This document shows positions 24 through 11,612 of a stretch of 11,612 nucleotides of DNA, piece after piece (the stretch's first letter is position 1; every line of letters begins with the position of its first letter). The stretch is from Granulicella sp. (lineage in GTDB: Bacteria; Acidobacteriota; Terriglobia; Terriglobales; Acidobacteriaceae): positions 9,116 through 20,727 of the forward strand of contig PKWK01000322.1 of the NCBI GenBank assembly GCA_003133205.1, in the 5' to 3' direction. The notes below the pieces were generated by a model, which worked only from the letters and a program-made list of their open reading frames with translations, searched no databases and had not been told where the DNA came from. Position numbers and translations under genes: made by a program.

Positions 24-329
24 CTACGGTTCCTCGTCCAAAGGATGGCGTGCCGGCTGCATGCTCTGATGAAGGATGCGCGAGACGAGAATGCCCTTGG
101 CGTGCTGCCGGTAGAAGACCACGTGCTTTCCCTGCTCAATTCGCCGCAGACCGGGACGAATATCGTCGCAAGCCCGGCCCAGTGAAGGGTTCTTCGCGAG
201 TTGCTGGCAGCAATCTTCGATCTCGGTCAAATACAGGTCGGCTTGTACTGGGCCCCACGTGCGCAGTGTGAATTGGCCGATGCTGAAGTAGTCCTCTTCA
301 GCACGGCGAGAGTAAAGAACTTCCGCCAA
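24..329 (-). CDS. parE: ParE-family toxin of a type II toxin-antitoxin system
   Basis: A 101-residue RelE/ParE-superfamily protein. Known ParE toxins act in the cytoplasm, usually on DNA gyrase, and are neutralised by the antitoxin made from the same operon; the target here is inferred from the family. The sequence shows the typical N-terminus (AEVLYSRRAEEDYFSIGQFT, residues 2-21), a TWG motif near residue 25, the core LAKNPSLGR around 44-52, and the C-terminal strand pair KHVVFYRQ and ILVSRILHQSM (about residues 68-90) that ends most ParE proteins. Length is normal. The start codon is TTG (329-327), three bases after the antitoxin stop; no in-frame ATG fits better and the family N-terminus begins here. 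The ribosome binding site is weak (GGCGG), so translation is probably coupled to parD. The gene looks intact. Confidence 0.92.
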   Translation of the reverse strand: MAEVLYSRRAEEDYFSIGQFTLRTWGPVQADLYLTEIEDCCQQLAKNPSLGRACDDIRPGLRRIEQGKHVVFYRQHAKGILVSRILHQSMQPARHPLDEEP

Positions 330-332
330 GGT

Positions 333-590
333 CTACCGCCGTCTTGCAGGAAGGTTCAGAGACTTTCGGACGCGGGCGACGACGTTGCCTTTGGCGATGC
401 CGCTCGCATCTCCTTCGTCTATCGCTCGTTGAAGCAGGGAAAGCTTGGCCTCGTACTCCCGCTCTTCGCGCTCCAGGGTTCGCAGGGCGGCGCGGACGAC
501 CTCGCTGGCATTGTCGTAGCGGCCGTTCTCGATTTTGGCGGTCACAAAGCGGTCGAGTTCATCCGTCAGATTGACATTGCGAGTGGGCAT
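333..590 (-). CDS. parD: ParD-family antitoxin (ribbon-helix-helix)
   Basis: An 85-residue antitoxin of the ParD/CC2985 type. It should bind ParE through its C-terminal half and repress its own operon through its N-terminal ribbon-helix-helix domain. The N-terminal strand TRNVNLTDELDRFV (residues 3-16) is the DNA-binding ribbon. GRYDNASEVVRAALRTLE (about 22-39) is the signature helix pair. The charged tail with AIDEGDASGIAKG (about 53-65) is the toxin-binding segment. An upstream in-frame ATG at 653 would add 21 residues that do not match the family. The ATG at 590 is preferred because GGAGG (605-601) lies 10 bases before it. It is followed by parE with a three-base gap, forming a compact antitoxin-toxin operon. 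Confidence 0.93.
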   Translation of the reverse strand: MPTRNVNLTDELDRFVTAKIENGRYDNASEVVRAALRTLEREEREYEAKLSLLQRAIDEGDASGIAKGNVVARVRKSLNLPARRR

Positions 591-646
591 GGGAGCACTG
601 CCTCCGTCTCCGGGGAAATCAATACATCCTCTCAAGGATAACCCGA

Positions 647-684
647 TTGGCAAAGATTGCCAACAGATTCTGCGAGATTGGCAA
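647..684. promoter_or_regulatory. Candidate ParD operator: perfect TTGGCAA/TTGCCAA palindrome plus a third half-site
   Basis: TTGGCAA (647-653) and TTGCCAA (657-663) form a perfect 7-base inverted repeat with a three-base spacer, and a third TTGGCAA lies at 678-684. The group sits 57-94 bases upstream of the parD start. On the minus strand, TTGCCA within it resembles a -35 box. ParD proteins usually bind short palindromes over their own promoter, so autoregulation is the natural reading. No good -10 box at standard spacing was found, so the promoter itself is not fixed. Confidence 0.5.
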
Positions 685-1740: not shown

Positions 1741-2743
1741 TCAGTTATCGACGAGCACGATCTTGCCTGCCACGCCGCCGCCAGCCAGCAACTCCAGCGC
1801 CTGTCTCGCTTCCAGCAGCGGAAACGTCCGGGTGATCATGGGATCGATCTTCTTCTCCGCGACGAGGGCGAAGATCTTGGGCAGGTCTTCGCGCAGCGGC
1901 TTGGGATCCTTGCGATACAGCATGGTGATGCCGTAGAACTTGCCGATTCGTCCGCGCAGCCGCGACCCGATAAAGATGTTGGCGAACATCGCCACTTGGG
2001 CAAGCATAGTGGGTGCTGCACCCATGAATCCGAATCCGACCAGCGTTCCCCCCCTCCGCAGCGCCGATGCAGGGACCGATGCTGGCGCCGCCGATCGCAT
2101 CGAAGGCGTAGTCGACGCCGCTGGGTTCGAGGGCGCGGATGAGGCGATCGACGGGCTCTGCGCGCGACTCGATGGGAATTGCGCCAAGCGAGCGCAGCGT
2201 CGCGTGTTTCGCGGCCGAGGCAGCGCCGTACGTCTTCAACCCGGCGAGCCGCAGCAGTTGCAGCGCGGCCGTGCCCACACCGCCAGCCGCGCCGGTGACC
2301 AGCGCCGTCTGCCCGGGCTGAACCTTGGCGACGCGATGGATCATCTGCCACGCGGTCACATAATTCAAAATCACAGCCGCAGCACCGCGGTCCGAGACAG
2401 CGTCGGGGATCGGGATAAAGTGTTCGGCCTCGCGCATCAGCATCTCCGCGAAGCCTCCGTAGACGGTCAGCGCCGCCACACGCTGTCCCACTGCAAAGCC
2501 GGTCACGCCCGCGCCGATTGCGTCGACCACGCCGGCGACCTCGTATCCGGGGACGAGCGGAACTTTGGGCGCGTAGGAATATTTCCCCGCGAGGATGAAG
2601 AAGTCGGTCGAGCCCACGCCCGCGGCGCGCACCCGCACCCGCAATTGCCCCGGCCCGGGAGCCTCCATCGGCAGTTCAACCACCTGCAGGTCTTCCGGCG
2701 CTCCTGGTTTTGTCAGCATCACTGCGCGGTAGGTTGCGGCCAT
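1741..2743 (-). pseudogene. Zinc-independent medium-chain dehydrogenase/quinone oxidoreductase, frameshifted
   Basis: It encodes an NAD(P)H-dependent quinone oxidoreductase-like enzyme of the MDR superfamily (QOR/VAT-1 branch), a cytoplasmic reductase of quinones or enones. The GroES-like N-domain is clear (VPLVPGYEVAGVVDAIGAGV, about residues 61-80), without the zinc ligands of alcohol dehydrogenases. The Rossmann motif GAAGGVG is at 151-157. The first frame runs from ATG 2743 (TGAGGA six bases before it) to about residue 232, then turns into low-complexity arginine-rich nonsense. The C-terminal third (TLVGFGFMGAAP to AGKIVLVDN, stop at 1741) lies in the next frame. The switch falls in a run of seven Gs (plus strand C7, 2048-2054). 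With six Gs the protein would read GAAEGGTLVGFGF and be 333 residues, the normal family length. Either a one-base slip in nature or a homopolymer sequencing error. Confidence 0.85.
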
Positions 2744-2890
2744 GGAGGTCCTCAGAAGTATTGGATGCCTGGGCGTGGTGGTGGGGCTTTCTTAATGAGG
2801 AGCGGAATGGTGGAAGTGAGGCGGTAGAATTCACCACATTGCGTTCGAGTGCGGCGGGATTTCGTGAAGGCGAAGGAAGAGGTGGCGCGG

Positions 2891-3301
2891 ATGAGGCACC
2901 AAGTGTTTCTGGGCTGTGGGGTTCTCGCGATTTGCGTTTCGTCCGTGGCGGCACAGCTTCCATCGCCCGTGCCCGAGGTGGCTGCGCAGGCTGTGCAGGT
3001 GGATCGCTATCCGGCGCATGCTGCGATCTTTGCGAATGGCGTGAAGGGTGTGCCGGGGGTGGTGTACTGGACGCAGACTGGCTATCGGCCGCTGACGCTC
3101 GATCTGTATCTTCCGCCGAAGAGTTTGCGGCGGCCGGCGGCAGGGTTTCCGTTGGTCGTCATGATCCACGGCGGCGGATGGATGGGAACTGCTCGCATAG
3201 GCTCGCCGCATGCCCTCCGCAGCAACATATCATGCCGGCTCAAGGGCGAAACCACCGCCGCGCCTGCGTGCGATACCCCACACTGTCGTGCCTGCTCATA
3301 A
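2891..3301 (+). pseudogene. Secreted alpha/beta hydrolase (esterase), truncated after the HGGGW oxyanion motif
   Basis: This is the N-terminal piece of a secreted carboxylesterase-like alpha/beta hydrolase. The ATG at 2891 follows GGAAGAGG (2875-2882, eight bases away). A signal peptide MRHQVFLGCGVLAICVSSVA ends near AAQ. The conserved strand GYRPLTLDLYLPPKS and the oxyanion motif HGGGW (residues 93-97, bases 3167-3181) follow. Family members are near 300 residues and carry GxSxG, Asp and His further on. Here similarity stops right after GGGWMGT (about base 3190), and the last ~36 residues to the TAA at 3299-3301 resemble nothing in the family. All catalytic residues are missing, so it cannot be an active esterase. 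It is divergent from the oxidoreductase, with 147 bases between the starts. Confidence 0.8.
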
Positions 3302-3396: not shown

Positions 3397-3469
3397 CGTG
3401 GGACGGGGCCCGATGGGCAATCCTGTACGAATTACGATGCGCCATGCTGAGGCGAACCAGGAGAGTGGC

Positions 3470-5470
3470 TTGACGGCGTGCCCCGGCGGGTACGCCACCC
3501 GGTTCGGGGGACGTATTCTGGGTGTTCTCTGCGCCGCCCTGCTGCTGTGCCTCGCCCGCCCGGCGTCGGCCAAGACCGACTCAGTCCCGGACTGGGTGCG
3601 GTCGGCTGCGGCTCAAACCACTCCCCATTACCCCGCGGAGACCAACGCCGTCGTCCTGCTCGACGACATCACCTACTCGGTCGCAACCGATGGCCAGGCC
3701 GTCGAGCATCGCCGTCACGTGGTCAAGATCCTCCGGCCGCAGGGCCGCGACAACGCCGTCATCCACATCGGCTTCGACAAGGACACCAAGATCCTCTCGA
3801 TGAACGTCTGGAGCATCGGCGCCGACGGCCACGAGTACGCGATGAAGGACAAAGATTTCTCCGATGTTGGCCTCGACGGAGACAGCGACATGTTCCAGGA
3901 CGACCGGTTCCGAGTGGCGCGCGCTCCCGGCGCCGATCCCGGCTCCGTCGTCGCCTATGAGTACGAGCAGCGAGCGCGGCCGTTCGTCACCGAGAAGACA
4001 TGGTCCTTCCAGAACGAGATCCCTCGCCTCAACCAGAGCTTCACCCTGGAACTTCCGCCCGGGTACAGCTACCGAACGGTGTGGGCGCACCACGCCACGG
4101 TCCCGGCTGCGGACCTCGAAAACCAGCGCTGGCGCTGGGAGATGAACAACACTGCGGCCGTCGATCTGGAACGGGTCCCGCTTGCGCCTTCAGCCGACTC
4201 GCTGGCTGGACGCATGACGGTGCACTACGCCGGCCCGGGACTCGCCGCCGCGGCCCAGAGCACCTGGAAGAGCATCGGGGTATGGTTCGGCGACCTGGCA
4301 AAGGACCGCCTGGTCGCCACGCCGGAGGTCACCGCGAAGGCCCAGGAGTTGACGGCCGGCAAAACCGACTTCTATGACAAGACCGAAGCCATCGGCGAAT
4401 TCGTCCAGAAGCAGGTGCGCTACTTCGCCGTCGAGGTCGGCATCGGCGGCTATCAGCCTCATGCTGCGGGCGACGTCTTCCGCCATCGCTACGGCGACTG
4501 CAAGGACAAGGCGACGCTCACCGCCGCCATGCTCTCCACCGTCGGCGTCCACGCCGCACTGATGATGGTGGACTCGGAACGCGGCGTCGTCGACCCCGAT
4601 GCGCCGTCGCTCGTCGGCAACCACATGATCGCCGCCATCGAGCTGCCAGTGGGCTACACCTCGCCGCGACTGCACAGCACCATCACAGCCGGCACCGGCC
4701 GCCGCTATCTCATCTTCGATCCCACCTCGGAGAAGACCGCCTTCGGCCAACTCGAATCCGAGTTGCAGGGCGGCTACGGCATCCTGTTGGAAGGCCCCGA
4801 TACGCAGGCGATCCAGCTTCCAGTGCTCGATCCCGCACTCAACACGATCCATCGCACCGCGAGCTTCCGCCTCGACGCCGACGGCGTTCTGAAGGGCACC
4901 GTCACCGAGAAGCGCTTCGGCGATCTCTCCGAAGTTCGTCGCGAGGTCTACGCCAAGGGCGACGCCAAGCAGCAGACCGATTTCCTCGACCACTCGCTCG
5001 GGAACGACTTCACGTCGTTCTCCGCCACCGGCGTCAAGGTGGAGAACGTCGACTCGCTCAATCAGGACTTCACGCTCTCCTACTCGCTCTCTGCCGACCG
5101 CTACGCCAAGGCGATGGGTTCCTTGCTCATGGTGCGGCCGCGCGTTCTCGGCGATCTCGACCTCGACACCGACCGCAAGCCGCGCACCATCCCCATCAAC
5201 CTTGGCGAGACCATGCAGGCCACCGACGAATACTCCATCGAGCTGCCCGACGGCTACTCCGTCGACGAGGTCCCCGATCCGGTCAAACTCGACGTCGGCT
5301 TTGCCGCGTACCAGAGCGACGTCCAGGTCAAGGGCAACACGCTGCACTACCAGCGCACCTACACCATTCGCGAGATCACGCTTCCTGCGGACCGCTACGC
5401 CGATGTGCAGAAGCTCGCCGGCACCATTGCGGCCGATGAGGCTAGCAGCGCCATATTGAAGAAGAAATAG
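3470..5470 (+). CDS. Exported DUF3857 and transglutaminase-like domain protein, triad intact
   Basis: A 666-residue protein of the DUF3857/transglutaminase-like family, common in Acidobacteriota and Bacteroidota. The substrate is unknown; exported members are presumed to act on peptides or proteins in the periplasm or at the surface. From the TTG start the signal peptide runs to about residue 34 (GRILGVLCAALLLCLARPASA). The DUF3857 domain spans roughly 50-210 and the transglutaminase core about 285-420. The triad is visible: Cys344 in YGDCKDKA, His385 in GNHMIAAI, Asp417 in YLIFDPTS. The C-terminal third is the beta-rich region usual for the family. Possible starts are GTG 3398, ATG 3413, ATG 3437 and TTG 3470. 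TTG is chosen because AGGAG (3459-3463) stands six bases before it and the signal peptide then has normal length. A 53-base gap to the next gene suggests an operon. Confidence 0.88.
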   Translation: MTACPGGYATRFGGRILGVLCAALLLCLARPASAKTDSVPDWVRSAAAQTTPHYPAETNAVVLLDDITYSVATDGQAVEHRRHVVKILRPQGRDNAVIHIGFDKDTKILSMNVWSIGADGHEYAMKDKDFSDVGLDGDSDMFQDDRFRVARAPGADPGSVVAYEYEQRARPFVTEKTWSFQNEIPRLNQSFTLELPPGYSYRTVWAHHATVPAADLENQRWRWEMNNTAAVDLERVPLAPSADSLAGRMTVHYAGPGLAAAAQSTWKSIGVWFGDLAKDRLVATPEVTAKAQELTAGKTDFYDKTEAIGEFVQKQVRYFAVEVGIGGYQPHAAGDVFRHRYGDCKDKATLTAAMLSTVGVHAALMMVDSERGVVDPDAPSLVGNHMIAAIELPVGYTSPRLHSTITAGTGRRYLIFDPTSEKTAFGQLESELQGGYGILLEGPDTQAIQLPVLDPALNTIHRTASFRLDADGVLKGTVTEKRFGDLSEVRREVYAKGDAKQQTDFLDHSLGNDFTSFSATGVKVENVDSLNQDFTLSYSLSADRYAKAMGSLLMVRPRVLGDLDLDTDRKPRTIPINLGETMQATDEYSIELPDGYSVDEVPDPVKLDVGFAAYQSDVQVKGNTLHYQRTYTIREITLPADRYADVQKLAGTIAADEASSAILKKK

Positions 5471-5523
5471 AAGGAACCCACCAGATCATTCCAACGCCGA
5501 GTACGTCCGAAGGAACGGAAGCC

Positions 5524-7554
5524 ATGAACGCCACTATTCGCTGCACCCTTGCCCGCTGCCTGCCTCTTGTCTGCCTCATCGCGCTCGCACCCATCGCGCG
5601 CGCCGACCAGTGGACCGCACCCACCCCCGAGGAGCTCAAGATGACCTCGCAGCCTGAGGTGCCCGGGGCCTCGGCCGTCTACCTCTTTAAAGAGGAGATC
5701 ACCGAAGACAAGCTGCACATGTGGAGCAAATACGTCCGCCTCAAGGTGCTCACCGAAGCCGGCAAGGAGTACGCCAACGTCGAGCTGAAGCAGTACAGCT
5801 CCTCGGAGCACGGAGGCTACACGGTCAACGGCATTGCGGGCAGGACCATCCATCCCGACGGCACCATCATCCCGTTCACCGGCAAGCCCTTCGACAAGCT
5901 GATCGAAAAGGGCCAAGGCTACAAGGAGATGGCGAAGGTCTTCACCCTGCCCGACGTCGGAGTCGGCAGCATCATCGAGTACCATTACCAGTTGCGCTAC
6001 GACGACAACTACTACATCTCGCCGGACTGGTTCGTGCAGTCCGAGCTCTACACCCGCAAGGCGCACTACCTGTGGAAGCCAACCAGCGAATCCCTGGTCA
6101 CCAGCGACGACAAGGGCGGGCAACTGACCAGCGGCATCGCCTGGACGCCCATCCTGCCCAACGGCGCCGACTTCAAGCAGACCCATCTGCCGGGCACGGC
6201 CTACCAGGGTGGGGGCCAGTTGGTGATTGAGCTGAATATCCACGACGTTCCGCCCTCGCCCACCGAGGAGTACATGCCGCCGATCGACAGTCTCACCTAT
6301 CGCGTGCTCTTCTACTACACGCCGTATCGCTCGGGCGACGACTTCTGGAAGAACGAGGGCAAGCGTTGGGCGAAGAATCAGGACAAGTTCATTGGTTCCG
6401 GCAACAAGGTCCGCGCCGCCGTCAAGGATCTGGTCGCTGACTCCGATACGCCGGAGCAGAAGCTGCGCAAGCTGTATGCCGCCGTCATGAAGCTGGACAA
6501 CACCTCCTACAACCGCGAGCGCTCCGCCGCGGAGAACAAGTCCCAGGGCCTCGGCCAAGTCAAGAGCACGGACGACATCTGGGAGCGCAAGCGAGGCACC
6601 GACGATCAGCTCGCGGCGCTCTTCGTCGCCATGGCGCGCGCCGCCGGGACGAAGGCGTATCTAATGGCCGTCACCAATCGTAGTCGCAGCATGTTTCTGC
6701 CTTCTTACTTCAGCATGTCGCAATTGGATGACGATATTGCCGTCGTCAACATCGATGGCAAGGATCAATTCTTCGACCCCGGCCAACGGTATTGTCCATA
6801 CGGCCAGCTCGCCTGGAAGCACACCCTCGTGCAGGGCCTGCGTCAGGTCGATGGAGGCAGCGCAATCGCCGGAACTCCAGGCCAGTCCTACAAGGATGAG
6901 CGCATCGATCGCATCGCCGATCTCACCATGGACGAGCACGGCGAGGCGACCGGCACCATCACCATGACCTATCGCGGTGCGCCGGCGCTGCGCTGGCGCC
7001 AGAGCTTCCTCCGTGGCGATGACACCAGCCTGAGACACGACCTGCAGACTGCAATGGAAAAGATGATGCCGGGCGGAATGGACGTCAAGGTCAACTCCAT
7101 TCAGCAGCTCGAGAACTACGAGCAACCGCTCATCGTCAAATTCGACGTCAAGGGGCAGATCGCCTCCTCCACCGGCAAGCGGTTGCTGGTGCCGGGCGAC
7201 ATCTTCGAGGTGAACGAGAAGCCCACCTTCCCGCACGAGAAGCGCACGCTCCCTGTCTACTTCGACTACTCCAGTTCAGTTCTGGATGCGGTGCGCGTCA
7301 AGTTTCCTGCCAGCCTGGGCCTGGAGTCCGCTCCGGCCGCCCAGGAGGTGCCGTACCAGAAAACTGCCATGTACTCGATCAAGTCGGAGACAACGCCAAC
7401 CTCCGTCACGGTACGTCGTGCCTTCCTGATGGGCGACATCATCTTCAGCTTGCAGGAATTCCCCGATCTCCGCGCCTTCTACACCAAGCTCGAGACCAAG
7501 GACCAGGAGCCCGTTGTCCTGAAGCTCGCAACCCAGACCGCCGGCGGTCAGTAG
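5524..7554 (+). CDS. Exported DUF3857 protein with a degenerate transglutaminase fold
   Basis: A 676-residue paralogue-like neighbour of the preceding protein. The signal peptide is MNATIRCTLARCLPLVCLIA to about residue 27 (ARA). A DUF3857 domain spans about 45-240 (for example LPDVGVGSIIEYHYQLRYDD at 142-161). The transglutaminase-like core is at about 300-425, and a beta-rich C-terminus follows. In the core, GTDDQLAALFVAMARAAG stands where the active protein has GDCKDKATLTAAMLSTVG, so the catalytic Cys is Asp360. The His position is also Asp (LDDDIAVV, Asp403). Only the third residue is kept (FFDPG, Asp418). It is therefore probably not a cysteine transglutaminase or protease, and may bind substrate or partner the first protein. 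AAGGA and GGAAG precede the ATG. Similar GTD variants occur in the family as I recall it, so this is likely an established subfamily and not recent decay. Confidence 0.85.
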   Translation: MNATIRCTLARCLPLVCLIALAPIARADQWTAPTPEELKMTSQPEVPGASAVYLFKEEITEDKLHMWSKYVRLKVLTEAGKEYANVELKQYSSSEHGGYTVNGIAGRTIHPDGTIIPFTGKPFDKLIEKGQGYKEMAKVFTLPDVGVGSIIEYHYQLRYDDNYYISPDWFVQSELYTRKAHYLWKPTSESLVTSDDKGGQLTSGIAWTPILPNGADFKQTHLPGTAYQGGGQLVIELNIHDVPPSPTEEYMPPIDSLTYRVLFYYTPYRSGDDFWKNEGKRWAKNQDKFIGSGNKVRAAVKDLVADSDTPEQKLRKLYAAVMKLDNTSYNRERSAAENKSQGLGQVKSTDDIWERKRGTDDQLAALFVAMARAAGTKAYLMAVTNRSRSMFLPSYFSMSQLDDDIAVVNIDGKDQFFDPGQRYCPYGQLAWKHTLVQGLRQVDGGSAIAGTPGQSYKDERIDRIADLTMDEHGEATGTITMTYRGAPALRWRQSFLRGDDTSLRHDLQTAMEKMMPGGMDVKVNSIQQLENYEQPLIVKFDVKGQIASSTGKRLLVPGDIFEVNEKPTFPHEKRTLPVYFDYSSSVLDAVRVKFPASLGLESAPAAQEVPYQKTAMYSIKSETTPTSVTVRRAFLMGDIIFSLQEFPDLRAFYTKLETKDQEPVVLKLATQTAGGQ

Positions 7555-7575: not shown

Positions 7576-8151
7576 ATGGCTGCTCTGATTGAAGCAATAA
7601 ACGTGAAGCGCAAGAGCGTCTTCGAGTTTGAGAACACTCCCTACGCGTGTCTGGATGCAGAAGTGAACACGCCGACCGCGCGCGGCGGCCAGACGCTGGT
7701 GCGCCTGAAGATGCGCAATCTGCTGACCAGCGCGGTCTTCGAAAAGACCTTCAAGGCGCAGGACAAGTTCAAGGAGCCGGACCTGGTCTTTGTCGACGCG
7801 TCCTATCTATACAGTGACGGCGAGGGCTCGCACTTCCTCGATCAGGAGAGCTTCGAGACGCTGACGCTGACCGAGGCGATGGTGGGCAACGCGCTCGATT
7901 ATCTGGTGGAGGGCGCGCTGCTCCAGTTGCACAAGTTCAACGGCAACCCCATCGGCCTGCAACTGCCGATCTTCGTCGAGCTGCATGTGGCGGAGACGGA
8001 GCCCGGCGTGAAGGGCGACTCCTCGAGCGGCAGCGTCACCAAGGTGGCGAAGCTCGAGACCGGCCTCGAGATTCGCGTGCCCCTCTTCATCAAGCAAGGC
8101 GAAAAGGTAAAAGTCGCCACCGAAACCGGAGAGTTTGCCGGCCGCGCGTAG
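7576..8151 (+). CDS. efp: Translation elongation factor P with EfpL/YeiP-type PTARG loop
   Basis: A 191-residue EF-P. It enters the ribosome between the P and E sites and relieves stalling on consecutive prolines. Domain I (KOW-like, residues 1-66) contains LVRLKMRNLLTSAVFEKTFK. Domain II (about 70-133) contains ASYLYSDGEGSHFLDQESFE. Domain III (about 134-191) includes ELHVAETEPGVKGDSSSG and ends LFIKQGEKVKVATETGEF. The loop that touches the tRNA CCA end reads NTPTARGGQT (residues 31-40). It lacks the PGKGQ lysine of E. coli EF-P and the SGRN arginine of Pseudomonas EF-P. Instead it matches the two-residue-longer SPTARG loop of E. coli YeiP/EfpL, whose arginine works unmodified, as I recall. 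Arg36 would be that residue here. No modification genes (epmA/B/C, earP) are in the window. No Shine-Dalgarno precedes the start. It converges with the J-domain gene, six bases between stops. Confidence 0.95.
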   Translation: MAALIEAINVKRKSVFEFENTPYACLDAEVNTPTARGGQTLVRLKMRNLLTSAVFEKTFKAQDKFKEPDLVFVDASYLYSDGEGSHFLDQESFETLTLTEAMVGNALDYLVEGALLQLHKFNGNPIGLQLPIFVELHVAETEPGVKGDSSSGSVTKVAKLETGLEIRVPLFIKQGEKVKVATETGEFAGRA

Positions 8152-8157
8152 CGCGAA

Positions 8158-8751
8158 TCAGGCCGCGTCCTCGAGCGGAGAGGTGCACAGCAGGCGGTAG
8201 GCCTCGTTGAGGTCGGCCATCTGTTGCGTGGCGCGTTCGCGGACTGCCTCGGTGGCGTGCTGCAGGCGGTCGGGATGCCACTGGCTGACCATGCGCCGGT
8301 AAGCGGAGCGGATCTGCTCGCGGGTACTTGCAGCGGTGACTCCGAGGAGCTGGTGGGCGTGGGGCAGGGTCATGGCGCTGTCCCACGGTTGGGCGCCGGA
8401 CTCAGATTGCTGTGGCGTTTCGTTCCGCAGCGGCACACCCTCGGGCATCCAACCCTGCGGAATCCATCGGTGCGAGATTCGGTCGCTTGGAACCCAATCG
8501 GCCGGGGTCCAGCTTTGCGACCGGGGGTCGTGAGTCCGCGCGGCGGCGGTTTGAAGACGTTCGCGGTCGGCCTGCCGCTGGCGCCTTCGGTGTAGATTCT
8601 CCGCGGCGGCGGGGATGCCGAGGGTCCAGCTTTCTTCGAGGAAGAGCGCGTCGGGGTCGAAGTCTTCTCCGAAGAGCTGCTGCATGTTGTCGGCGAAGCG
8701 CGAGGACTGGTTCGGCGTTGCATCGCTACACGTTTGGAATTGGCCTGCCAT
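8158..8751 (-). CDS. J-domain (DnaJ-like) protein with C-terminal J domain
   Basis: A 197-residue Hsp70 co-chaperone of the minimal class III type. The J domain is at the C-terminus (about residues 130-190): HAHQLLGVTAASTREQIRSA, then YRRMVSQWHPDRLQ with the HPD triad at 159-161 that stimulates DnaK ATPase, then MADLNEAYRLL. It has no Gly/Phe region, zinc fingers or DnaJ substrate domain. Residues 1-129 are unrelated to known J-protein modules as far as I can see. They include a charged segment (RRRQRQADRER) and a tryptophan/proline repeat at 81-103 with four WxP units, and may choose the client. The ATG at 8751 has GGAGG six bases upstream. It is on the opposite strand from efp. Confidence 0.85.
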   Translation of the reverse strand: MAGQFQTCSDATPNQSSRFADNMQQLFGEDFDPDALFLEESWTLGIPAAAENLHRRRQRQADRERLQTAAARTHDPRSQSWTPADWVPSDRISHRWIPQGWMPEGVPLRNETPQQSESGAQPWDSAMTLPHAHQLLGVTAASTREQIRSAYRRMVSQWHPDRLQHATEAVRERATQQMADLNEAYRLLCTSPLEDAA

Positions 8752-8880: not shown

Positions 8881-10167
8881 TCAGGAGAGCCACTTCAGCA
8901 GGCGGATGACTCCCATGGCGGCCGGGCGCGAGTGGGCGGAGACCTCCCCGGCGCGGGCGTCGATCTCCTTGCGGCGGGCGGCGTAGTACTGGTAGGCCTT
9001 CAGCATCATCTGCTGGTTGGTCACGGTGGGCCGCCAGCCCAGCTCGTCGCGGATGCGCGTGGTGTCGAAGACGAAGTCCTCGGCGATCATCCGGTAGTGG
9101 TAGGGCCCAAGCGGCGAGACGCCCAGCGTGTGCGCCAGCTTCATCGCCGCGATGGTCGGCCGCCGCGGCAGTTGCGCGATGCGCGCCCCGGTTCCCGCAG
9201 CATCGATGACGGCCTGGTAGACCTCGCGCAGCGTAGGCACGTTGTCCGCACCCACGTGGAACAGCCCGGACTTGCCGTAGTCCATCGCCAGCACGCATGC
9301 GGTGGCGAGGTCCTGGGCGTAGATGAACTGGTAGCGGTTGCTGCCGTCGCCGACCACCCACACCTTGCGCCCCTCGTCGATGAATTCGAACAGAATGGCG
9401 AGCAGGCCGAGCCGTCCCTCGTCGATGATGGTGGGGCAGCGGATGACGATCACCGCGAGGCTGTCCTGAAACTCCTTGAGCACCTGTTGCCGTTGGGATT
9501 GCGGCAGAGCTTCAGCTACAATCCGACCTGCTTGGGCCAGAAATTCGCTACCGGCATCGAGTTGGTAGTCGTCGCACTCGGTGTCGTTATTGCCCAGGGC
9601 TACGTACACGGGCATGCCGGGGATGGATGCACGGAGTTCGCCCATGACAAAGTTCATGGTCTTCAGCACGAAGGTTTGATAGTCGCCCGGCGTCGAACCA
9701 GGAACAAGTGTCGCAAACCGACAAAAGAAGGCGTGGGCGATCAGATCGCCGCTCACCGTCATGAACTTTGCATCGGGCTGCTTGGACCTCATGGCCTTCA
9801 GGCTGGAGTCGAGTAGAGCAAACGGGGTGTCCACACCTCGTGCATGGCAGGTCTGCTGGAGCGCGGCAAACGCCTCCTTCTGATTCGAGGATGCCGGGGC
9901 TAACAGGATTGACCGCCAACGGGTCGCCGGGGCAGCGACAAGCTCTTGGACTTTGGCAGGGTCCTGAAAAGGATCGAAGTGGATGTCGCTGATGAATAGT
10001 GCAGGAACTGTGCGGTCCTCTGCCTTCACGGGATCTGTGGAGCCAGCCTTCGAAGCCAAGGCAGGGTGAGTCGCCTGGGCCAGAACCCCAGGCATTGAAG
10101 CAACTCCAATCCAAAAGCCGGACAGTGCAAGGAATCGCAGGACCAGGGATCGGTACGAAGTACACAT
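8881..10167 (-). pseudogene. Chimeric frame: exported metallophosphoesterase N-half fused to NAD-dependent epimerase/dehydratase C-half
   Basis: One open frame of 428 residues from ATG 10167 (AAGGTG 9 bases upstream) joins two unrelated proteins. Residues 1-31 are a signal peptide (LVLRFLALSGFWIGVASMPG, then LAQA). Residues about 55-234 are a calcineurin-like, sphingomyelinase-type metallophosphoesterase with motifs SDIHFDP (59-65), GDLIAH (140-145) and GNND (192-195). The downstream His and GHxH metal ligands are absent. From about residue 237 it becomes an extended SDR: VIRCPTIIDEGRLG, GDGSNRYQFIYAQDLATA, ELGWRPT. This part lacks the N-terminal GxxGxxG NAD-binding fold and the YxxxK active site. 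The seam is near base 9455-9470, inside KEFQDSLAVIVIR. Neither half can work as its family enzyme, and an exported SDR tail makes no metabolic sense. I read it as a deletion or recombination fusion, or a chimeric contig. An in-frame start at 10296 would add 43 unlikely residues. Confidence 0.82.
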
Positions 10168-10317
10168 GATTGGAATCACCTTGTGTCTCAATACTAAGGG
10201 AGTTTCAACACCGGGTACTGGCAGCATGGCGAGAATAAAAAAGGGCCATCGATTCGGTACCCCGGCAAACGACGTCGAGTAGAACAGTCGTGGCATGCGA
10301 CAGCGACGACATGTGAA

Positions 10318-11247
10318 TCAGCGCAGCTTGCGACGGTTTTCGGTGGCTCTCTTTCGGTCTCGGATTCCAGGCGACGGTCGATCTTGCCATTGTTGGTTAA
10401 TCTCTCTGCCTACGCCGTCAAGATCGGGAAAGATAACCGACTCAGTGATTCCTGCATCAGCCAGCTCGCGCTTGATCTGCGGGACCTTGTTGCGATCAAT
10501 ATCTACATGCTTTAGCCGAGATGCTGGGTTGAGGTGGAGGGTCTGAAGCCAATCACGTTTCTTTCCCCGCACAATGAAGCGACTTCTCTGAGCCGCGATC
10601 CGTCTGGTGATGTTGTAGAACTCTAAGGCTAAGGGTGCGGAGGGGAGGGGTGTCTTCTTCCATTCATCTTCGTCGTCAAAGAGGTAGATTCTGTCCCAAT
10701 CATGTTTATCTTCGGGACTATTCTTGCAGGTTTGCCTCCACGCGTCCTTGGCCTCTCCATAGTTCTCATCTGTGTCCAAAGTTGTCTGTAGCCAGGTCGG
10801 GTCCAATATGTATAGTCGCGGATTGCCACCGTCGCCCAAGTTTCGGTATACCGCAAAATGCAGGGCTATCAGCGCACCGTCCGACCAATCAAGAAGCCTT
10901 GTAGGTACGCCGTGATGCTGCATGAGGAAATACCATTCCCAATCGTCGTCGGGGGGATTCTCGCAGAATTGAAATCCCCACTTTTTGAAAGATTCGCAGT
11001 ATGCATTCTCTTGCTTCAACAAGTGGTGTATGGAATCCTTCGACGGCTTTCCGTCAGAATAACGATACAGTTGCGGAAGGAGAGGCGCCGCATAGAGGTT
11101 GTTCTCTCCACGAAACCAGAGTTCCTCTCCTACATCCAGCGGCAGTTTGGCTGCGCTCGACCAGGCTTCACGGAGGCGGCTGACGAAGCCTAGAACTTCT
11201 GCGACTGAACCGAGGACCTTAGGATCCATTGGCTTTCGGACTTTCAA
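10318..11247 (-). CDS. FRG-domain protein
   Basis: A 309-residue cytoplasmic protein with the FRG domain (Pfam family of unknown biochemical function, named after its FRG motif). It shows LWFRGEN (residues 43-49), DWEWYFLMQHHGVPTRLLDW (about 102-121), ALIALHFAVYR (125-135), RRIAAQRSRFIV (about 215-226) and the C-terminal signature SVIFPDLDGVGREI (about 270-283), in the family order and at usual length. No signal peptide or membrane segment. The TTG at 11247 is chosen as start because AAGGAGG (11262-11256) stands eight bases before it. An ATG at 11352 would add 35 residues without family features, and an ATG at 11229 lacks a binding site. GC is much lower than in the core genes (27/60 in 10681-10740), which suggests transfer. 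Such proteins turn up in accessory and defence-rich regions; a defence role is only an inference. Confidence 0.85.
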   Translation of the reverse strand: MKVRKPMDPKVLGSVAEVLGFVSRLREAWSSAAKLPLDVGEELWFRGENNLYAAPLLPQLYRYSDGKPSKDSIHHLLKQENAYCESFKKWGFQFCENPPDDDWEWYFLMQHHGVPTRLLDWSDGALIALHFAVYRNLGDGGNPRLYILDPTWLQTTLDTDENYGEAKDAWRQTCKNSPEDKHDWDRIYLFDDEDEWKKTPLPSAPLALEFYNITRRIAAQRSRFIVRGKKRDWLQTLHLNPASRLKHVDIDRNKVPQIKRELADAGITESVIFPDLDGVGREINQQWQDRPSPGIRDRKRATENRRKLR

Positions 11248-11612
11248 TGAACTTGCCTCCTTTACTTCACGCACGCTAGGAGCGTTCGATTCATGTTCGC
11301 ATGTTCCAGAGCAATGCGTGAGCCCGAATAACGTCATCCATGATTGCAGCACTTACTAATAGTCCAGAATATGGCATATTAGTCCCTGAAAACGCCCTTA
11401 TCGCCAGAAAGGATTCTCGGTAGGCGCGAAATCGCCAAAGCGCTCGCCGACGGCGGAGACAAGACCAAAGTCATCGCGGTTCCGGTGCCTGCATCATCGG
11501 GCTATCCACCTCCAACGTCGCAATGAACGCCGCAGGCGACCGATCTAATTCGAATGTCGGGGTGCTCATCCTGCTTCCCCCAAGTTGTACGCAGGCAACG
11601 TGGTAAGGCGTC
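11248..11612. other. Gene-free right end with a short orphan reading frame
   Basis: No intact gene, RNA or repeat array was recognised. Besides the palindromes at 11355-11383, the plus strand holds an open frame from 11383 to a TGA at 11524-11526 with no start codon. It includes ILGRREIAKALADGGDKTKV followed by IAVPVPASSGYPPPTSQ. Its composition is coding-like and GC rises again here, so it may be the remnant 3' end of a lost gene; I cannot name the family. The rest, to the window end, shows nothing supportable. Confidence 0.35.
11355..11383. repeat. Nested AT-rich palindromes upstream of the FRG gene
   Basis: ACTAATA (11355-11361) and TATTAGT (11377-11383) form a perfect 7-base inverted repeat. 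It encloses most of a second one, AATATG-G-CATATT (11368-11380). The element lies about 110-135 bases before the FRG start in an otherwise gene-free stretch. It could be an operator or the edge of an inserted segment. No integrase or direct-repeat partner was found in the window. Confidence 0.4.

Follow-up and report, generated by a model that had tools for sequence, protein, structure and literature searches.

Does an open reading frame that runs from the front of a putatively exported metallophosphoesterase into the back of an extended SDR epimerase represent a gene that some organism uses, or a join between two ordinary genes? The frame lies in the window (the whole stretch of DNA analysed, 11,612 nucleotides), where it resolves into three parts:

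8881-10167, minus strand: chimeric ORF P0001, 428 aa plus stop, from the ORF list and its translation
9487-10296, minus strand: 5' part of an acid sphingomyelinase (ASM)-like metallophosphoesterase gene, from the most upstream in-frame start; protein equal to P0003 residues 1-270
9466-9486, minus strand: seam, 21 nt encoding QVLKEFQ, the peptide common to both parents, placed by the overlap of the P0003 and P0005 identities
8881-9465, minus strand: 3' portion of an extended SDR epimerase gene, stop codon included; protein equal to P0005 over its final 194 residues

The frame can be extended upstream, in frame, to 10296, giving 471 aa, and a hydrophobic stretch is visible by eye at the N-terminus of P0001. 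ASM-like metallophosphoesterases carry the N-terminal metal motifs DxH, GDxxxxH and GNxD and the C-terminal motifs GHxP and GHTH-like, while extended SDRs are marked by a Rossmann GxxGxxG NAD-binding motif and a YxxxK active site. A pattern search of P0001 found DIH at residue 61, GDLIAH at 140 and GNND at 192, all in the first half, so that the N-terminal metal motifs of the first family are present; GHIP, AHTH, GxxGxxG and YxxxK were not found anywhere in P0001 by the same search. Pfam called an SDR in the second half only, and of the SDR only the C-terminal, substrate-binding part: Epimerase matched from residue 238 (profile positions 163-230 of 240) and GDP_Man_Dehyd (PF16363) from residue 266 (profile positions 207-329 of 332), with a sub-threshold 3Beta_HSD match starting at residue 217. 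There was no Pfam metallophosphoesterase call on the first half.

Both halves are identical to parts of separate, longer proteins. The front half, including the 43-residue upstream extension, shares 277 identical residues with P0003 (550 aa), up to P0001 residue 234. This protein carries the label "sphingomyelin phosphodiesterase acid-like 3" from its JGI source. Beyond the seam, P0003 carries GHIP at 344 and AHTH at 394 (pattern search), and its residues 156-544 match solved ASM-like phosphodiesterase 3a chains (best E 8.7e-18). Intact P0003 scores 21.4 bits against PF00149 (Metallophos), just short of the cut-off of 21.5, and the metallophosphoesterase identity of the front half of P0001 is assigned because of its identity to P0003 together with the match of P0003 to the solved phosphodiesterases. 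Thus, P0003 resembles the calcineurin-like acid sphingomyelinase-like phosphodiesterases 3a/3b (PDB 5fc1, 8w6p, 5kar), whereas the window ORF departs from P0003 after residue 277 and has neither GHIP nor AHTH. Judged by these two motifs and by its alignment with the solved structures, P0003 looks whole.

The back half tells a similar story. The last 201 residues of P0001, from residue 228, are identical to the end of P0005 (357 aa), which bears the label of a nucleoside-diphosphate-sugar epimerase. P0005 has GGSGFFG at 19 and YGRSK at 148 (pattern search), both absent from P0001, spans most of the Epimerase profile PF01370 (E 4.1e-43) and matches the UDP-glucose 4-epimerase of PDB 4zrm (E 2.7e-26); it falls under the curated cut-off of every NCBIfam family among the 25 listed of 32. 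P0005 therefore resembles the extended SDR nucleotide-sugar epimerases/dehydratases and, from its profile coverage and the alignment with 4zrm, looks complete; the window ORF differs in holding its last 201 residues alone. The description given in the earlier note, of a chimera in which one open frame joins metallophosphoesterase motifs to the second half of an SDR with each half missing its catalytic part, was borne out by the ORF and its motifs, by Pfam and by the identity of 277 and 201 residues to two intact, separate proteins.

Where the two identities meet is more informative still. They overlap in the ORF by exactly seven residues, QVLKEFQ, and the parents differ immediately outside this peptide (Q versus E before it, E versus D after it), so the DNA that they share can be at most 25 nt long (9464-9488), as deduced through the genetic code; the shared peptide is presumably shared at the DNA level as well. 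The region 9440-9490 proposed earlier for the seam was correct in location and can now be narrowed to 9466-9486 for the peptide and, at most, 9464-9488 for the DNA. QVLKEFQ is the longest word common to P0003 and P0005. When all pairings of the 32 metallophosphoesterase and 87 SDR relatives among the matches listed were compared (2784 pairs), only two shared a word of seven residues, P0003/P0005 and P0041/P0005, and the word was the same; the remaining 2782 shared at most six residues, with 20 pairs sharing six. Shuffling P0003 against P0005 gave a common word of at most six residues in 300 of 300 shuffles. Since the seam sits on the longest word that the parents have in common, and this goes beyond chance, the join was guided by QVLKEFQ.

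Base composition also changes at the seam, where GC3 steps from 0.639 in the metallophosphoesterase half to 0.938 in the SDR half. Differences inside the two DUF3857 genes of the window reach at most 0.115 (57 overlapping comparisons of 200 versus 200 codons). As a control, the GC3 of SDR and metallophosphoesterase genes was compared within the same genome for eight pairs from seven genomes, with G002 counted twice: six pairs differed by no more than 0.091, while G182 differed by 0.163 and G049 by 0.316. Because two of the eight control pairs differ by more than 0.15, the composition argument is weakened; a jump of this size within one genome is possible, if unusual.

The placement of the two genes in relatives bears on whether a cell could have brought them together. 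Among 200 genomes from the family of Granulicella paludicola (G002), 11 contain both a close SDR (at least 60% identity) and a metallophosphoesterase relative (G002, G049, G066, G118, G131, G151, G160, G176, G182, G184 and G185). The metallophosphoesterase relatives in these genomes are 40-61% identical and may be paralogues, so the distance between the two genes is an indication rather than proof. Both genes lie on one contig in six genomes, at least 262 kb apart: about 262 kb in G176, 414 kb in G002, 742 kb in G182, 1.04 Mb in G049, 1.38 Mb in G185, and, in G160, 5.3 Mb, which would shrink to 0.93 Mb on a circular contig. Their strands are opposite in four of the six (G002, G049, G160 and G176), and none of the 20 neighbourhoods fetched held a metallophosphoesterase together with an SDR. 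The earlier note had left the choice between a deletion joining formerly separate genes and an assembly fault. A deletion between neighbouring genes predicts parents that are close together and in the same orientation in relatives, which is not what the six one-contig genomes display, and of the two origins it is assembly that our results favor.

A real, recent rearrangement within one strain, in which recombination between two distant genes at the short shared word (a large deletion, an inversion or a translocation) left a non-functional hybrid ORF, is nonetheless worth weighing. Recombination at a short repeat would give an identical seam, and the parents' common word, no longer than 25 nt, comes close to the 23-27 bp that PMC12074656 quotes as the minimum for RecA/RecBC recombination. 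Furthermore, the SDR and the metallophosphoesterase of G049 differ widely in GC3 despite belonging to a single genome, and in two of the six one-contig genomes (G182 and G185) the genes share a strand with the metallophosphoesterase upstream, an order that fits a deletion. Such a deletion, however, would need the loss of about 742 kb or 1.38 Mb, and in the other four genomes the strands are opposite, with 262 kb the shortest distance found. Each parent, moreover, is found whole and identical in protein sequence, and the fusion has no other copy among the 120 listed proteins or in the 200 family genomes. Taken together, these observations make a rearrangement of this kind unlikely. Highly improbable, in our estimate, is the stronger version in which a very recent recombination at the 21-25 nt word between distant loci created a true in-frame fusion, fixed in an Acidobacteriaceae strain and yielding an exported hybrid protein.

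The search for further copies was made with the whole ORF. It returned 3955 proteins at E <= 0.001, of which 120 were listed, after scoring of the 7998 candidates sharing most words. Among the 120 listed, 32 matched the first half only, 87 the second half only and one both, the last being P0002, which is the window's own protein; these 120 of 3955 thus contained the fusion only once. Although 120 were listed, a full-length relative of comparable identity would be expected among the top matches. Of the 200 family genomes, 96 gave a match of some kind, and none of the places listed in them spanned both halves. The viral contigs scanned contained no relative of the ORF, and the open-access library searched had nothing on this pair of domains in Acidobacteria or on chimeric proteins as assembly artefacts in connection with gene fusion. 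Homologues of full length and identical domain order, which would point to a real two-domain family, were thus not found besides the window itself among the listed proteins, family genomes and viral contigs. By E-value and identity, the nearest family genome of the metallophosphoesterase half is G185 (61%), while those of the SDR half are G191, G170 and G184 (71-78%); this difference may reflect metallophosphoesterase paralogues.

These results weigh on the suggestion that the ORF encodes a functional, exported two-domain enzyme that makes use of both partial domains. The seam does not interrupt the frame, and a hydrophobic stretch is seen at the N-terminus, but each half is missing catalytic motifs of its own family, no full-length relative beyond the window turned up in the listed proteins, the family genomes or the viral contigs, and the GC3 jump speaks against a shared history of the halves. 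Since the missing motifs lie, in each parent, on the far side of the seam, no function is expected of the product, and we give this suggestion almost no credence.

An assembly chimera of two ordinary genes is very probably what the ORF represents. Two genes without relation to each other, in a metagenome that includes Acidobacteriaceae, would share one short word encoding QVLKEFQ, and an assembler could cross through it, over no more than 25 nt, from the gene for the putatively exported, ASM-like metallophosphoesterase, of which the front would be kept, into that for the SDR epimerase, of which the back would be kept. Both genes read this word in one and the same frame, which is why the frame stays open across the join. 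Joins at short shared words are normally removed by paired reads or a larger k, which counts against an assembly origin. At the protein level, both parents are found intact elsewhere and the seam falls in a word common to both, as expected of such a chimera. Passages of PMC7299287 and PMC8171044 describe shared k-mers as a cause of chimeric contigs, and a JGI pipeline outlined in PMC8125072 uses a smallest k of 23, there in MEGAHIT and for metatranscriptomes, with metagenomes assembled by SPAdes. The present case is like the chimeric contigs of de Bruijn graph metagenome assembly in that two sequences, each intact elsewhere, are joined at a common word; it differs in that the contigs described in PMC8171044 involve related species sharing a stretch, whereas the two genes joined here are not related and have no more than 25 nt in common. 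We favor assembly because the joining word is so short, GC3 jumps at the seam, the parents are far apart in six relatives and the fusion did not recur among the 120 listed proteins or in the 200 family genomes. The differing nearest genomes of the two halves and, elsewhere in the window, a truncated gene and a frame-split gene point the same way. Over recombination in a cell, it is preferred because of the distance and orientation of the genes in relatives, the intact and identical parents and, again, the lack of a second copy. We infer that software, not a cell, made the join.

The ORF is probably not a real gene and is very unlikely to encode a working fusion enzyme. More generally, a shared word of 25 nt or less can give a metagenome contig an ORF that looks convincingly like an in-frame fusion. 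Matches to two separate intact parents that overlap by exactly their longest common peptide word, combined with a change of codon usage where they meet, are a warning sign, and ORFs of this type should be excluded from fusion-gene and Rosetta-stone inferences.

The remainder of the window contains the following features:

24-653, minus strand: ParD antitoxin and ParE toxin pair, both over Pfam cut-offs
1744-2743, minus strand: zinc-type alcohol dehydrogenase split over two frames, with ADH_N and ADH_zinc_N in one and the ADH_zinc_N_2 end in another
2849-3211, plus strand: truncated BD-FAE-type esterase, matched in 4 of the 200 family genomes (frames of 322-408 aa)
3398-7554, plus strand: two adjacent DUF3857/transglutaminase-like genes (Pfam), upstream of EF-P
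10318-11352, minus strand: FRG-domain protein (Pfam) beside the metallophosphoesterase half, GC3 low at 0.565, matched in 1 of 33 relatives

The FRG-domain gene is accessory-looking and was matched in none of the 20 neighbourhoods fetched. On the other flank, the EF-P/DnaJ block occupies 7576-8751; its EF-P is nearest to that of G160 (87%), a genome in which the SDR shares only 66% identity with the SDR half of the window. Among the 20 neighbourhoods, EF-P and the SDR occur together in one only (L046, from G066), where they are about 7.3 kb apart. The DnaJ-domain protein that lies between EF-P and the SDR in the window was matched in 1 of 33 relatives. With one match apiece among the 33 relatives, the FRG-domain and DnaJ-like neighbours do not assign the flanks to a genome. 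The DUF3857 genes were not found beside EF-P in the four EF-P neighbourhoods fetched. The junction between the EF-P/DnaJ block and the SDR half may also be suspect.

Signs of breakage occur elsewhere in the window, in the truncated esterase and the frame-split dehydrogenase, and could be assembly faults or decayed genes. As the domains of the zinc-type alcohol dehydrogenase fall in two frames, a frameshift or sequence error is placed at about 2020-2190. The esterase match breaks off near 3184-3211, a short way past HGGGW, and the ORF that begins at 3398 is an unrelated one of the DUF3857 type; this end is possibly a second seam, or possibly a decayed gene.
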